Shown here: positions 34,222 to 43,383 of the stretch, one piece after another
Layout of the letters: every line of letters starts with the position of its first letter
Position numbering within the stretch: the stretch's first letter is position 1
Source: Sulfuricurvum sp.
GTDB taxonomy: Bacteria; Campylobacterota; Campylobacteria; Campylobacterales; Sulfurimonadaceae
Length of the DNA stretch: 64,000 bases
Assembly: GCA_024637295.1 (NCBI GenBank)
Contig: JAGXFL010000001.1
Location: 190,215-254,214 of the forward strand
Direction: 5' to 3'
Made by a program: the position numbers and the translations under genes
Notes under the pieces: generated by a model
Database searches by the model: none
The model's input: only the letters and a program-made list of their open reading frames with translations
Told to the model about the DNA's origin: nothing

Positions 34222-36417
34222 TTAGACGTCACCTTCAGCGACTAATTCAGCACGGGTTAGCTTAAGTCGTTGTGCTAATTCGGCAGCGAGACTTTGCATA
34301 AACTGAAATACCGCTTTTTTATGATGTTCTGAAAATGCATCAAATGCCTCGCGTGTGATGACATACAAATCCGTATCAGTGGCCGCTACGACATTGGTAT
34401 AATGCGGGCTTCCATCTAAAAATGAAAACTCTCCGAAAAAATTATTTTGCCCTATGGTGTTGAGATGGACATTTTTACGGTTTTCTATAGGAAGCATAAC
34501 ACGCACCAAACCACGGCGTATCAAAAACATTTCTCCTGTTCCTTCTCCTTGTGAATATATCACCTCTCCTTTGTGAAAGGAGAGGCATTTTACGAGGCTT
34601 TGAATCTCGGCTAATGTATCCTCTTTTCGGTCTTTAAAAAGGGTAAAGTCGCGTAATTGAAGAAGTTCTTCTTGCTTTTGCTCAATCCTATTATCTTTGA
34701 TGATAGCATTTTCGGTCCACTCGATCGCATCTTCCAAATCATCAAAAAGTTTGATGGGGCTCAAGTGTTTTAACAAGCCGACTTGATTGAAATAACTTTC
34801 TAGATCATCCCCTGTAGGCAGTTTGTGCGGTAAACGGCTTAGTATAAGATAGCCGTTTTTGTCATGAAGCATATCTTTGATCTGTAGTAAAATATGTGCT
34901 GCAGTCAGATCGACCGTTTGTACGCGCTTCATATCGATAATAATGTATTTTTTGGTTTTAAGGTCCTCTTGTAGCATGGCATAAAGCTGATTTGCCGTTC
35001 CAAAAAACAGACTTCCATGTAATTCATAGACTGAAAAATCGGATCCTTTTTCGAGTAAAATATCGGTTTCAGCACGATTGCGGATCAGTTTGCTTTTGAT
35101 ATCTAGCCCATCCGTATGTCGATTGACAACGGATGTTCCAATTTGCTGTGCAATATACAAAATGATAGCTAAGATCAATCCGACACCTGAAGCTGCTATG
35201 AGACTAATCGTAATAGCTGTCATGGCAACGGAAACTATAATCAAAAAATCTAGGGCAGTTTTGCGTGATTGTAGTAATTGTATACTGTGTTTATCGATCA
35301 TTCTAAAACCGATGATGATAAGAATTCCTGCCAACGATGCAATAGGAATCCAGGCAATCAGACTTCCAAGTATGAGGAAAGCTACAATTCCCATAACTCC
35401 TTGTACTAAGCCGGAAAGTCGTGATGATGCACCGCTTGAGAAATTGATCATCGTCGGCCCCATTGTCCCAGATCCTGGCATCCCTCCAATCAAGGTAGAG
35501 ACGATATTGCCTGTCCCTTGAGCGATTAGTTCTTGATTGGGATTATGAAAAGAATGGGTCATACTATCCAGCACGATACAGGTTTTTAGTGTGTCAATGG
35601 AGAGGAGTGCCGCAAGGGTCAATGCCGGGAAAAAAAGGATTGAAATATCATTCCACGCTAGATGGGAAAGATTTTGAAATCGCTGGATAAAGGTATCTAT
35701 GAAGTTGATACCATCTCCGTTACCAAGTTGACCGATGATGTAGGGGCTGTCGATTTGCAGCAATGAAGGATCGATAAGTCCAATGGCAAAATAACTACAC
35801 ACCCCTGTGGTTAAAGCAATGACAACAGCTGGGATAGTCTGAAACAGTTTATTTGCGAACAGCATTGCCAAAATGGTTGCCGATCCGACAGTGACACTTT
35901 GCCATTGCCACAAAGAAGAGTTTTGCAAACTTTCCCAAAAATGGAACTCTGATGGCATACCTAAAAATTTGGGTGCTTGGGAAGCGATGATGTATAGACC
36001 AATACCGCTTAAATATCCGCTTACGACAGGAAAGGGCATGTATTTTATCAATCGTCCCAGACCAATAGTACCAAACGTGATTTGTATGATTCCTGCTAAC
36101 AGTGCAACCACCATTAGCATAATAAAAATCGTATCAGGATTGACACCCAGCGTCATATATTCAAGAGCAAATGCCGATAAAACAGCCGCAGCAGGAGCAC
36201 TTGGTGCAGAGATCAAACGATCAGTTCCCCCCAGCATCGATGCGGTTATACCTATAGCTACGACTCCTAAAATACCGGCTATCGCCCCATAAGCTACATA
36301 GTGACCACCCAAGGTTGCATAAATCGTTACACCAAATGCGATTGCGGCAGGTAAAGCAACCAGCATAGCTGAAGTACCACCCCATAGATCGCCTGCGATA
36401 TTGTTGGATTTTATCAT
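34222..36417 (-). CDS. SulP family transporter with STAS and cyclic-nucleotide-binding domains
   Basis: 731 residues: a SulP/SLC26 anion-transporter core with 12-14 TM segments (about 1-420; SAPSAPAAAVLSAFALE and GMPGSGTMGPTMINF are conserved), a STAS domain (about 445-555, FFGTANQLYAML and DLTAAHILLQI), and a C-terminal cNMP-binding domain (about 600-720, GEVIYSQGEGTGEMFLI and NNFFGEFSFLDGS). The substrate may be sulfate, bicarbonate or another anion. The cNMP-type domain is an unusual addition suggesting ligand gating. It is convergent with thrC. Confidence 0.88.
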   Translation of the reverse strand: MIKSNNIAGDLWGGTSAMLVALPAAIAFGVTIYATLGGHYVAYGAIAGILGVVAIGITASMLGGTDRLISAPSAPAAAVLSAFALEYMTLGVNPDTIFIMLMVVALLAGIIQITFGTIGLGRLIKYMPFPVVSGYLSGIGLYIIASQAPKFLGMPSEFHFWESLQNSSLWQWQSVTVGSATILAMLFANKLFQTIPAVVIALTTGVCSYFAIGLIDPSLLQIDSPYIIGQLGNGDGINFIDTFIQRFQNLSHLAWNDISILFFPALTLAALLSIDTLKTCIVLDSMTHSFHNPNQELIAQGTGNIVSTLIGGMPGSGTMGPTMINFSSGASSRLSGLVQGVMGIVAFLILGSLIAWIPIASLAGILIIIGFRMIDKHSIQLLQSRKTALDFLIIVSVAMTAITISLIAASGVGLILAIILYIAQQIGTSVVNRHTDGLDIKSKLIRNRAETDILLEKGSDFSVYELHGSLFFGTANQLYAMLQEDLKTKKYIIIDMKRVQTVDLTAAHILLQIKDMLHDKNGYLILSRLPHKLPTGDDLESYFNQVGLLKHLSPIKLFDDLEDAIEWTENAIIKDNRIEQKQEELLQLRDFTLFKDRKEDTLAEIQSLVKCLSFHKGEVIYSQGEGTGEMFLIRRGLVRVMLPIENRKNVHLNTIGQNNFFGEFSFLDGSPHYTNVVAATDTDLYVITREAFDAFSEHHKKAVFQFMQSLAAELAQRLKLTRAELVAEGDV

Positions 36418-39432: not shown

Positions 39433-41097
39433 GTGTTACGATCTTTACATGATACCTTGCAACCGCGCATCGTTTCGTATTATAAAAAACACGGGTTTTC
39501 TAAAGAGGACTTTTATGCTGATGCCCTTGCAGGTTTGGTAGTGGCTATTGTTGCATTACCCTTGGCTATGGCCATTGCCATCGCTTCGAATCTTCCGCCC
39601 GAGCGAGGCCTTTTTACGGCAATTGTAGCTGGATTTGTGATTTCTGCACATGGAGGGAGCCGTTATCAAATCGGTGGTCCAACTGCCGCCTTTATTGTGA
39701 CGGTAGCCATGGTCGCTATGAAGCATGGATATGAGGGGTTGGTGCTCTCCACGATTATGGCGGGTGGGATATTGATGATAATGGCGTCAGTACGAGCAGG
39801 GGAATTGATTAAATTTATCCCATATCCAGTGATCGTTGGGTTTACGTCGGGAATCGCATTATTGATTGCTTTTTCTCAGATACGTGATCTATTCGGGCTT
39901 TCGATCACGACTATTCCTCCTGATTTTATCCACAAACTTTTTGTTTATCTCAGTCACATCAATGAGACCAATTTTTATGCAGTTGCCGTAGCGGTAGGGT
40001 CACTGGCTATTATGATCGTTACAAATAAATTTATCCCAAAAATTCCAGGACCTATTATTGTGGTGAGTGTATCTGCTTTGGCAGTATGGGGGTTGAACCT
40101 CCCTGTGGAAACCATCCAAAGTCGTTTCGGCACTATTCCGACAACATTACCTGCACCGACATGGCCTGATATCACGTTTGAAAAATTACGCCTTTTACTT
40201 CCTGATGCGATTACGATTGCGACACTAGCTGCCATCGAGTCGCTCCTTTCTGCTGTTGTAGCTGATGGGATGACTGGAACAAAACATAAATCCAATGCTG
40301 AACTTTTAGGGCAGGGTATCGCCAACATCGCATCAGGTATTTTTGGAGGCTTACCGGCTACCGGTGCAATCGCTCGAACTGCAATCAATATCAAATCAGG
40401 GGCTAGGACACCTGTTGCCGGAATCATGCACGCATTTTGGCTATTTATATTTATGTTTTTTTTCGCCTCATTGATTGTGAAAGTCCCATTGGCTGCATTA
40501 GCCGCTATTTTGTTGATGGTGGCGTGGAATATGTCGGAGATCAAACATATTCGTGAAATCATGGTTGCTCCAAAAAGTGATCTGATGGTATTGCTAGTTA
40601 CATTTTTATTGACTGTGTTGGTAGATTTGAATTTTGCAATACAAGCGGGGATCGCACTGGCATCTATTTTGTTTATCGATCAGATGATGAAATCGACTAA
40701 AATCACCATTGTCGATTCCGAAGAAGACGATCCTGATTCGATACACAATAAATCGATTCCACAAGGGGTCGATGTCTATGAGATACAAGGTCCTTTATTT
40801 TTTGGAGTCGCCGAAAAACTACTTGATACGCTTTTGTTGTTTGATAAACCTTCACATGTTTTTATATTGCGTATGAGGCATGTTCCATTGATTGATGCGG
40901 CAGGATTGCATGCCATTGAGATACTGTATGAACGTCTGAACAGCAGAAATACGGTGTTGATATTATCAGGGGTAAATGGACACGTGCGAAGATTTTTAAA
41001 ACAGAGCCATATCGATCAAAAAATTGGAGAGGATAAGATTGTAGATCATATTGACAGAGCGTTAGCTATAGCAAGTACTATTGTTAACAGAGTATAA
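39433..41097 (+). CDS. SulP family inorganic anion transporter with STAS domain
   Basis: 554 residues; GTG start with AAGGAGAG about 6 bases upstream. A SulP core of about 12 TM helices (PLAMAIAIASNLPPERGLF, GGLPATGAIARTAINI) and a C-terminal STAS domain (about 440-545, FGVAEKLLDTL and PLIDAAGLHAIEILYE). This is the common YchM/DauA-like layout, without the cNMP domain of the other SulP gene 3 kb away. It could carry sulfate, dicarboxylates or bicarbonate; the nearby sulfur-oxidation genes make sulfate plausible. Confidence 0.92.
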   Translation: MLRSLHDTLQPRIVSYYKKHGFSKEDFYADALAGLVVAIVALPLAMAIAIASNLPPERGLFTAIVAGFVISAHGGSRYQIGGPTAAFIVTVAMVAMKHGYEGLVLSTIMAGGILMIMASVRAGELIKFIPYPVIVGFTSGIALLIAFSQIRDLFGLSITTIPPDFIHKLFVYLSHINETNFYAVAVAVGSLAIMIVTNKFIPKIPGPIIVVSVSALAVWGLNLPVETIQSRFGTIPTTLPAPTWPDITFEKLRLLLPDAITIATLAAIESLLSAVVADGMTGTKHKSNAELLGQGIANIASGIFGGLPATGAIARTAINIKSGARTPVAGIMHAFWLFIFMFFFASLIVKVPLAALAAILLMVAWNMSEIKHIREIMVAPKSDLMVLLVTFLLTVLVDLNFAIQAGIALASILFIDQMMKSTKITIVDSEEDDPDSIHNKSIPQGVDVYEIQGPLFFGVAEKLLDTLLLFDKPSHVFILRMRHVPLIDAAGLHAIEILYERLNSRNTVLILSGVNGHVRRFLKQSHIDQKIGEDKIVDHIDRALAIASTIVNRV

Positions 41098-41136
41098 ATA
41101 TTCTTTGTTTCTACTGTAAATAAACTATTTTTAATA

Positions 41137-41142
41137 TATACT
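41137..41142 (+). promoter_or_regulatory. possible -10 box of the Hvf-like operon
   Basis: TATACT lies 33 bases before the peptide start in a very AT-rich 78-base gap. No -35 is evident, and the alternative sigma factors known to drive such operons elsewhere cannot be excluded. Confidence 0.3.
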
Positions 41143-41175
41143 GCTTACTGAAATAATATGTTAAAAGGAGTTAAA

Positions 41176-41421
41176 ATGACAAAAAATGAAATCGCAGCAC
41201 TTGTACTGGGTGCGTCTTTGATGAGTGCTCCAATGGCAATGGCGAATGAAGCAGCTGCAAAATGCGGTGCAGGGAAATGTGGTTCTAAGATGAAAGCATC
41301 GGAAGCAAAAGAAAAAGTAGCTGATGCAAAAGCGAGCGATGCTAAATGCGGTGCCAATAAGATGAAGGCACCAGAATCAAAAGAAAAAGCAGCCGATGCA
41401 AAATGCGGTAGTAAAAAGTAA
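41176..41421 (+). CDS. hvfA: HvfA-like exported precursor peptide (cysteine KCG repeats)
   Basis: The start at 41176 is chosen because AAAAGGAG lies just upstream; the in-frame ATG at 41158 would place that site inside the gene. The 81-residue product has a signal peptide (cut likely after AMA) and a low-complexity Lys/Ala tail with exactly four Cys, each in KCG (one as AGKCG). The tail contains a two-fold repeat of KCG, KMKA, E, KEK and ADAK. Precursors of this kind are modified on Cys-Gly by MNIO enzymes to oxazolone/thioamide or thiooxazole groups that bind copper. The modifying enzyme is encoded 12 bases downstream. Confidence 0.78.
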   Translation: MTKNEIAALVLGASLMSAPMAMANEAAAKCGAGKCGSKMKASEAKEKVADAKASDAKCGANKMKAPESKEKAADAKCGSKK

Positions 41422-41433
41422 GGGCAGCTGGGG

Positions 41434-42255
41434 ATGAATACTTTTCACGGATGCGGTCTAGGTTTACGTCGGGAATTTTTGGAAGACTTTATCAGTTTAA
41501 AAAAAAAGCCCGATTGGATCGAAATCACTCCTGAAAATTGGATATTCACCCCACACCGTTATCGTGAGAGTTTTGAGCAGATTATGGGATCATTGCCTGT
41601 AGTCGCTCATGGTGTCTCACTCTCTATTGGTTCACCAGAGCCGATCGACAAAAGTTTTTTAAAAGAGATAAAAGCTTTTTTGGATCGATATAAGATTGAA
41701 CACTATTCGGAACATTTGAGTTTTTCATCATTGGGTGGGGTACAGACATATGAATTGCTCCCATTGCCGATGACACGTTCGATGGTGATGCATATCGGAG
41801 ATAAGATCAAGCGGGTGCAGGATTTTTTACAACGTCCGTTGATCTTGGAAAATGCGAGTTATTATCTGGCGCCGTACAATGAGATGCATGAAGTGGATTT
41901 TATTAATGAAATAGTGCAATACGCTGATACGAAACTCCTGTTGGATGTGAATAATGTCTACGTAAACGGGACCAATCATGGATTTGATCCGGATGATTAT
42001 ATCCGCCAAATACCACCTTCACGTGTTGCGTACATGCACATTGCAGGACATCTTGAATACCCTGATGAGGTTTTGCTACTGGATACTCATGGTGAAGCCA
42101 TATGTAAAAAAGTATGGAAGCTGTTAGACAGAACACTTAAAAAAATAAACGTACCTGTAATGATTGAACGTGACAACAATATCCCGCCATTAAAAGAGCT
42201 GATGCAAGAGTATAAAAAACTCTCCAAGATCGTTGCCAAAAGAGGTACAAAATGA
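41434..42255 (+). CDS. hvfB: DUF692 multinuclear non-heme iron oxidase (MNIO), HvfB/BufB-like
   Basis: 273 residues, TIM-barrel DUF692 family. The expected metal ligands are visible in order: EITPENW, VAHGVSLSIG, HYSEHLSFS, ILENASYY, LLLDVNNVYVN, MHIAGH, LLDTHG, and VMIERDNN. Family enzymes (MbnB, TglH, HvfB, BufB) use two or three irons and O2 to rearrange peptide cysteines. A GGGG site precedes the ATG. It overlaps hvfC by 4 bases (ATGA), so the two proteins are made in step and probably form a complex, as in MbnBC. Confidence 0.92.
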   Translation: MNTFHGCGLGLRREFLEDFISLKKKPDWIEITPENWIFTPHRYRESFEQIMGSLPVVAHGVSLSIGSPEPIDKSFLKEIKAFLDRYKIEHYSEHLSFSSLGGVQTYELLPLPMTRSMVMHIGDKIKRVQDFLQRPLILENASYYLAPYNEMHEVDFINEIVQYADTKLLLDVNNVYVNGTNHGFDPDDYIRQIPPSRVAYMHIAGHLEYPDEVLLLDTHGEAICKKVWKLLDRTLKKINVPVMIERDNNIPPLKELMQEYKKLSKIVAKRGTK

Positions 42256-42950
42256 AAACAGAGACCGCGGTAATGAAGCGTTTTGTACAGATCATTCAAA
42301 ATGACGAAGCCCTGAGTAATCCTTTTCGAAACCGATTGCAGGTGTATCGTGATATGGTCCATTTTAGATTTGTGGAGACCATAGAAAATATCTATCCCAT
42401 ATTATGCAAAAAATTGGGTCCACAACTGGTGCATGAATTGATTCGCGAATTTATTGCAAAAGGAGCAAAAAATCCATTTATCGTAAAGATGTCTCAAGAG
42501 TTTGGAGATTTTTTGCGCCATAATCCCAAGACAAAAGGGTATGGCTTTTTAGAAGACTTATTGTGGTTTGAATACAGCGAATTGGATCTCTTGAACAGAG
42601 ATTTTAACGAGGTTAAAGCAGGATTTGATTGGAATACACACTACATACTCTCATCCTCTTCATTGATACGAAATCTAAGCTATAAAGTATATACAGGTGA
42701 GTTTGAATCGCCCTGCATTGCATCGCTTATCCTTTATTATAATTTTGATGAGAAACGTGTTTATTTTGAAGAGATAACCCCTTTTGCGCAACAACTCATC
42801 GAACAGTTACAAAGTATGACTCTCGAAGGTGCTGTGAGTGTATTGGCGCAGATGTATGAACTGGATACTAAGGTATTGCGTGAAAGTGTTGAAACATTAG
42901 TCAAAAAGTGGTGTAATCAACGGATTTTAATCAAATTAACGGAGGTGTAA
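42252..42950 (+). CDS. hvfC: DUF2063-type partner protein, HvfC/BufC-like
   Basis: 232 residues. The N-terminal third (RLQVYRDMVHFRFVETIENIYPIL, then RHNPKTKGYGFLEDLLWFEYSEL) has the DUF2063 pattern. The domain is annotated as putative DNA-binding, but in characterised loci its relatives recognise the precursor peptide and bring it to the MNIO enzyme. The context (overlap with hvfB, 1 base before the DoxX gene) supports that role here. No DNA-binding motif is apparent. Confidence 0.8.
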   Translation: MKTETAVMKRFVQIIQNDEALSNPFRNRLQVYRDMVHFRFVETIENIYPILCKKLGPQLVHELIREFIAKGAKNPFIVKMSQEFGDFLRHNPKTKGYGFLEDLLWFEYSELDLLNRDFNEVKAGFDWNTHYILSSSSLIRNLSYKVYTGEFESPCIASLILYYNFDEKRVYFEEITPFAQQLIEQLQSMTLEGAVSVLAQMYELDTKVLRESVETLVKKWCNQRILIKLTEV

Positions 42951-42951
42951 G

Positions 42952-43383
42952 ATGTATCCATTAAAAGAAAAAATAGAAACGCTACTGAACAAAGGACAAG
43001 ATGTTTCATTGTTGTTTTTGCGTTTAGTTTTAGCGTATGGCTTTTATGAGCCTGCAATCACTAAATGGTCCGATATCGGTGCAGTAGCAATATGGTTCGG
43101 TGAAGATCTAGGGATCCCTTTCCCACTGTTAAATGCTTATATGGCTGCATCCACGGAGATGGTAGGAGTCGTATTAATGGTGTTGGGGCTTGGTGTGCGT
43201 TTTATTGCCTTGCCGATGATGGTGGTCATGGTAGTTGCTATTGCTACAGTGCATCTGGCGCACGGGTTTTCATCGGGGAATAATGGATTTGAGATCCCTT
43301 TGTACTATTTTTTAATGCTATTTACGCTGGCCACTCATGGCGGGGGAGTATTCGGGATGGATTATTTTTTTAAAAAATTATAA
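42952..43383 (+). CDS. hvfD: DoxX family membrane protein, HvfD-like
   Basis: 143 residues with four hydrophobic helices (about 17-35, 57-78, 80-101, 112-132) and the DoxX pattern of FLRLVLAYGFYEPAITKW and ALPMMVVMVVAIATVHLAHG. GGAGGT precedes the start by 5 bases. DoxX proteins accompany many MNIO/RiPP loci and may move electrons or help export or redox of the product; the reaction is unknown. It closes the four-gene operon. Confidence 0.82.
   Translation: MYPLKEKIETLLNKGQDVSLLFLRLVLAYGFYEPAITKWSDIGAVAIWFGEDLGIPFPLLNAYMAASTEMVGVVLMVLGLGVRFIALPMMVVMVVAIATVHLAHGFSSGNNGFEIPLYYFLMLFTLATHGGGVFGMDYFFKKL

Follow-up and report, generated by a model that had tools for sequence, protein, structure and literature searches.

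A captophorin-type hvfABCX operon in Sulfuricurvum and the Campylobacterota branch of its MNIO

Loci that pair an MNIO with a type 1 partner (MNIO-PME1) number over 24,000 (PMC13097082). In FonABC, HvfABC and NgoABC, the modification made is a 5-thiooxazole (PMC13097082). At Lys-Cys sites, HvfBC and FonBC install 5-thiooxazoles that bind copper, with a loss of 4 Da per cysteine (PMC13097082, PMC13419390), the products of FonA and NgoA bind copper (PMC13097082), and the active cofactor of HvfBC has been characterized (PMC13419390). A copper phenotype is described for bufferins (PMC12452194). Captophorins have so far been studied in Pseudomonadota, and our literature search found no paper that brings Campylobacterota or Epsilonproteobacteria together with MNIO, bufferin or DUF692.

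The DNA analyzed here, a stretch of 64,000 nucleotides called the window, comes from Sulfuricurvum, in agreement with the campylobacterote source supposed in an earlier note on the same sequence. At 41176-43383 it holds four genes that form an HvfABC(X)-type operon (oxazolin/captophorin, "Buf_EGKCG"), composed as follows:

41176..41421, + strand: hvfA, 81-aa precursor; putative signal peptide at about residues 1-23 (AMA|NE), then a 58-aa core with four KCG
41434..42255, + strand: hvfB, 273 aa; MNIO (PF05114), TIM barrel; Asn248 at the place of FonB Phe250
42252..42950, + strand: hvfC, 232 aa; MNIO partner, DUF2063 with an RRE-like C-terminal domain (PME type 1)
42952..43383, + strand: hvfX, 143 aa; DoxX-family membrane protein

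All genes are on the + strand with gaps of 12, -4 and 1 bp, hvfB and hvfC sharing 4 bp, and AAAGGAG stands in front of the hvfA ATG. Both the open reading frames and the profile scans agree with the four tightly spaced genes (precursor, MNIO, DUF2063 protein, DoxX protein) that the earlier note had described. The scores lie above the cut-offs for NF050137 (KCGExKCG, HvfA family) on hvfA (22.6 vs 19.5), NF050144 (HvfX) on hvfX (121 vs 80 bits), PF09836 on hvfC (37.6 vs 27.2), PF07681 on hvfX and PF05114 on hvfB (322 bits). The equivalog cut-offs are missed by the precursor (NF050188, HvfA; 25 vs 95), by hvfB (332 vs 360, still its best NCBIfam match) and by hvfC (85 vs 142). The gonophorin precursor, which is proven by experiment, is likewise under the HvfA equivalog cut-off (48 vs 95), and for that reason the miss does not rule out membership.

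The earlier note had called the locus HvfABCD/bufferin-like. The first half of this label can be sharpened to the HvfA/Buf_EGKCG (Lys-Cys captophorin) branch, whereas the second does not hold in the sense of a DUF2282 bufferin: the Pfam scan of the precursor gave no match, DUF2282 included, so that it is not a Buf1 bufferin. Methanobactin membership finds no support either, since the MbnB model scores 44 bits on hvfB against a cut-off of 325 and the partner is a DUF2063 protein, not MbnC. The A-B-C gene order recurs in nearly all Campylobacterota loci found, and the B-C order in all. The operon is another case of a known and numerous kind, not something fundamentally new.

The precursor carries exactly four KCG in its 81 residues, a number never equalled in 100,000 shuffles. 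Its two-fold internal repeat, KCG..KMKA.E.KEK..DAKCG, which the earlier note had also pointed out, is real, as none of 5000 shuffles scores as high. The N-terminus, read as a pattern, has Lys in the N-region, a hydrophobic core and AMA|NE, i.e. a putative Sec-type signal, which fits the small exported peptide suggested before. The four motifs are AAKCG, AGKCG, DAKCG and DAKCG, with Glu at position 1 in 0/4. The strict EGKCG five-residue repeat, the commonest but not the sole captophorin motif, is thus absent from the window HvfA; other five-residue motifs, including AKCGA, count as captophorin motifs (PMC13097082). The mature 58-mer has a calculated monoisotopic mass of 5813.88 Da unmodified and 5797.75 Da if four sites are modified. 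The calculated LysC pieces (MH+) would shift from 1394.65 to 1386.59 for NEAAAKCGAGKCGSK and from 964.45 to 960.42 for ASDAKCGANK upon modification. According to a published caution, the mature product may be a single polypeptide or a set of fragments (PMC13097082).

The metal ligands that the earlier note saw in the MNIO are conserved with 3BWW: the putative ligand columns HGVSLS, EHLSF, EN, DVNN, HIAGH, DTHGE and ERD are shared by the two proteins. The HvfB model (pLDDT 86) has 3BWW as its best PDB match at 1.7 A, followed by TglH and MbnB. Asn175, Asp242 and His244 are essential in HvfB (PMC13419390), and these N, D and H residues, mapped through 3BWW numbering, fall on conserved columns of the window enzyme. 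In the tree (midpoint root), the HvfBs from Campylobacterota are grouped together (support 99/98), and their sister group is the pseudomonadotal HvfBs, whose precursors have EGKCG repeats; bufferin-type MNIOs fall outside.

For HvfC, which is only distantly similar to HvfC/FonC-type partners, the model is of low confidence (pLDDT 61), its alignment being a shallow one drawn from a subset of the loci. Its top PDB matches, 3DEE (NgoC), TglI, PqqD and a leader-bound RRE (TbiB1), fit a DUF2063-RRE partner as far as such a model goes.

We have good confidence that hvfABCX is a captophorin operon that makes a 5-thiooxazole peptide, which is exported and buffers excess periplasmic copper. In the proposed mechanism, HvfC would present HvfA to HvfB by means of its RRE-like domain, and HvfB, with a mixed-valent di-iron site, would oxidize the cysteine of each Lys-Cys-Gly by four electrons to the 5-thiooxazole, which is the ring expected by analogy. 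All four HvfA sites would be modified, amounting to about -16 Da in total. HvfA would then exit by Sec, with cleavage of the signal peptide near AMA|NE. The cationic product of 58 residues would bind Cu(I) by its ring thiols in the periplasm and buffer excess copper. HvfX, as an inner-membrane protein, would assist at some step. For the window product, both the 5-thiooxazole chemistry and the copper binding are assigned by analogy with the characterized systems, and we infer the physiological role, the role of HvfX and the regulation of the operon.

The copper handling proposed in the earlier note is kept as the best guess, by analogy. It is backed by Campylobacterota relatives, in some of which the hvf locus adjoins genes for CusA/CzcA-type efflux and in others genes for two-component regulators. 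A CusA/CzcA-family RND permease, an adaptor and an outer-membrane-type protein lie upstream of hvfA in three loci (L054 1353-6670, L057 1410-6727, L059 779-6121), two of which have a YceI-like gene between this set and hvfA. An OmpR/PhoB-type response regulator and a histidine kinase are encoded downstream of hvf in L048, L050, L052, L055, L060, L061 and L062; the pair is found 3' of hvfC/hvfX in several genera (L048 4207-6046, L052 8989-10804, L055 9158-10967, L061 10095-11898, L062 9459-11268). It is likely a dedicated regulator of the operon, absent from the window copy, although at curated cut-offs the two-component regulators of hvf loci are not assigned to metal. Against the copper reading, no copper gene adjoins hvf in the window, where SulP, DUF255 and dsbD are native or unrelated neighbors, and the profile match of the efflux genes to the CusA/CzcA family is not one that singles out copper.

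In a possible, if rather unlikely, alternative, the chemistry is the same and the main task is another. The peptide may handle a different soft metal such as silver, cadmium or zinc, or it may serve against stress of an oxidative or reactive-sulfur kind, which would suit a sulfur oxidizer. The DoxX gene of the operon would fit redox stress, the RND genes beside the relatives belong to a family that is not copper-only, and other metals and stresses have been raised for such clusters (PMC12452194). On the other hand, every tested 5-thiooxazole peptide binds copper (PMC13097082), and one related locus (L058) has a copper-type P-ATPase, along with an ArsR-family regulator, within 6 kb of hvf. The copper-buffering captophorin stays the preferred reading, and it suggests thiol-rich metal buffering in sulfur oxidizers, where copper meets sulfide.

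FonB Phe250, beside the catalytic Asp249, is conserved in Lys-Cys MNIOs and replaced by Asp in Cys-Lys ones (PMC13097082). In the corresponding column, placed by reference to 3BWW (ERDF) and to the ERDD pattern of bufferin-type enzymes, Asn is present in 31/31 Campylobacterota HvfBs and Phe in 27/27 readable pseudomonadotal HvfBs, the latter gathered by HvfB alignment and not by motif. The motifs differ too: of about 202 motifs from Campylobacterota, 13 have Glu at position 1 (6%), compared to 221/235 gammaproteobacterial ones (94%), a set gathered with the HvfA profile, which favors EGKCG; 30 loci gathered by HvfB alignment instead are almost all EGKCG as well. An NPF...GY segment follows the signal peptide in 22/29 gammaproteobacterial precursors and in 0/30 from Campylobacterota. 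It is important to note that these differences in Asn, motif and leader are one comparison, not many, because all follow one phylogenetic split.

In Acinetobacter and Neisseria, the motif, the leader and the Phe vary apart. The absence of NPF...GY is not a feature of Campylobacterota only, as the gonophorin and Moraxellaceae precursors also lack it. Outside the phylum, Asn and Glu-poor motifs do not strictly go together: a Phe enzyme of Acinetobacter accompanies DAKCGA, and in one gammaproteobacterial case the enzyme has Asn and the motifs are DGKCG and EGKCG.

We tentatively propose, as a real possibility short of a probable one, that in the Campylobacterota branch the Phe to Asn replacement, CGAGKCG/DAKCGA in place of EGKCG, the leader and HvfC changed together, so that the enzyme would follow another substrate code and might also modify its peptide in another pattern. 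With Asn for Phe beside the catalytic Asp and the EGKCG Glu absent from all four sites, turnover or specificity could differ, and judging from the sequences the branch-specific changes could make a functional variant. The new subtype suspected in the earlier note is borne out only in part: a subtype signal runs through the phylum (Phe to Asn, Glu-poor motifs, no NPF...GY), but the KMKA and KEK blocks do not mark one. These blocks are fast-changing linkers that vary even among close Sulfuricurvum relatives, and similar DAKCGA-xK repeats are also present beside an Acinetobacter plasmid MNIO. With the same fixed change next to the catalytic base in thirty-one enzymes, and with another cysteine motif, the branch is a natural experiment on the choice of cysteine.

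That the branch modifies its peptide differently, e.g. at the paired CGAGKCG cysteines only or to another oxidation product, we consider improbable. The changed selectivity residue (Asn 31/31 vs Phe 27/27) and the changed motif (Glu in 6% vs 94%) speak for it, and a two-repeat AKCGA variant is modified only once by FonBC (PMC13097082). However, FonB F250A and F250D still yield 5-thiooxazole (PMC13097082), the Acinetobacter DAKCGA precursors are paired with a Phe enzyme, and the catalytic and metal residues of HvfB are unchanged. That HvfA is an unmodified cysteine-rich metal-binding peptide, with the MNIO idle or acting on something else, is very improbable: one locus, L063, does have an MNIO and partner without an adjoining KCG precursor, but the precursor adjoins the enzyme in nearly all loci, the frames are intact, the ligands are conserved, and the MNIO-DUF2063 pairs characterized so far modify their own precursors (PMC13097082).

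In L063 (6999-8493), the gene upstream of the MNIO and HvfC-like pair resembles HemB; here the precursor may be encoded at another place, or else the enzyme has another target.

The closest named relatives of the operon are in five Sulfuricurvum MAGs (HvfB identity 82-88%; one labelled just Epsilonproteobacteria). In one search of relatives, hvf was found in 6/37 Sulfuricurvum genomes, the window genome counted, with a second, partial copy in 1/6. This second copy (L064 10276-10788, same place as L011) consists of an hvfA and a partial hvfB, whose match stops at the contig end and for which two TAG stops were reported in the search. An even draw from Campylobacterota gave an MNIO over cut-off in 26/397 genomes; an HvfB alignment match was found in 145/398 pseudomonadotal genomes, a rough comparison since the query was another. 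Outside the genus, the nearest HvfB (G327, 70% identity) is from another family of the same order; within the family of Sulfuricurvum itself, a second genus has a copy at 57%. A closer HvfB in another family than in the same one suggests, on sequence grounds, transfer of hvf within Campylobacterota or uneven loss.

In the hvf-bearing Sulfuricurvum genomes, the operon lies upstream of dsbD with a PPK2 gene on the other side, and in 2/6 of them a same-strand DUF255 gene neighbors it on the non-dsbD side. In several hvf-less Sulfuricurvum genomes, the DUF255 gene adjoins dsbD with a gap of roughly 130-170 bp. The DUF255-dsbD gap is a variable spot of the genome, and the hvf operon is a patchy cassette there. 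DsbD and DUF255 are ruled out as parts of the system, as their genes adjoin without hvf in other Sulfuricurvum. In other hvf-less genomes (e.g. L168 7557-11085), the same gap holds ArsR-like regulator, porin-like, rhodanese-like and DsrE-like genes.

Two features were recognized in front of hvfA:

41083..41098, + strand: TTAACAnAnTATRAAT, an element conserved on alignment of the sequence in front of six Sulfuricurvum operons; candidate site for a regulator
41134..41144, + strand: probable -10 region TATATACT of the hvf promoter, with the conserved TATACT

In 6/6 Sulfuricurvum loci the TATACT box precedes the hvfA start, at -37 to -39. In the six related sequences, the TTAACA element, which is degenerate in L013, lies 43 or 52-54 bp upstream of this box, and this difference of one helical turn fits a regulator that would be bound at the element. 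The full pattern has a single exact copy in the genome, and its one-mismatch matches equal the reversed-pattern control. A generic promoter and terminator scan gave no excess over shuffles, and an Rfam search around the operon gave no match.

In the window genome, and among the loci compared only there, a SulP gene (39433-41097) lies directly 5' of hvfA. The TTAACA element overlaps its last codons, and its C-terminal residues are not the ones seen in other SulP copies. This agrees with an insertion at a later time that left the control region of hvf intact. Being at this place in the window genome only, SulP is ruled out as a part of the system. Another SulP transporter (window 34222-36417, 731 aa) is kept near the locus in Sulfuricurvum; in its C-terminal part it matches CRP-type regulators, which bind cyclic nucleotides.

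Compared to the known systems, the locus resembles HvfABC oxazolin of Haemophilus influenzae and FonABC fontiphorin of Fontimonas in the A-B-C order, the repeated KCG, the DUF2063-RRE partner and the MNIO, whose metal ligands and Arg-Arg pair are the same. It differs in having AGKCG/DAKCG where these have EGKCG, Asn where they have Phe beside the catalytic Asp, and no post-signal NPF...GY, which is found in most gammaproteobacterial precursors; the DoxX gene of the window operon is absent from fon. With NgoABC gonophorin of Neisseria gonorrhoeae (NgoC = 3DEE; PMC13097082) it shares a precursor without NPF...GY and mixed motifs, and 3DEE is the top match of the window HvfC model, whereas in the gonorrhoeae system the selectivity site is Phe, the motifs are EGKCG/EGSCG and the HvfB is 41% identical to that of the window.

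The Acinetobacter ursingii pAURM-2 and Moraxella plasmid clusters have ADAKCGA-xK repeats close to those of the window, a DoxX gene nearby and HvfBs 46-47% identical to the window enzyme, the best of the plasmid set. They differ by a Phe enzyme, a divergent DoxX gene and a sigma-70 factor in the cluster, to which pAURM-2 adds a zf-HC2 protein. The pAURM-2 cluster (L104 2079-4919), with DAKCGA, the sigma-70 factor and the zf-HC2 protein, indicates that captophorin-type genes travel by plasmid, along with a regulator pair of their own. On the Moraxella plasmid (L103 1017-4944), an IS4-family transposase gene separates the MNIO from the DUF2063 gene. The Buf1 (DUF2282) and Buf2 bufferins, finally, have in common with the window locus the MNIO, DUF2063 and DoxX genes and, as predicted for the window peptide, an exported copper-binding product, and differ from it in the precursor family and motif and in their MNIOs, which lie outside the HvfB group in the tree.
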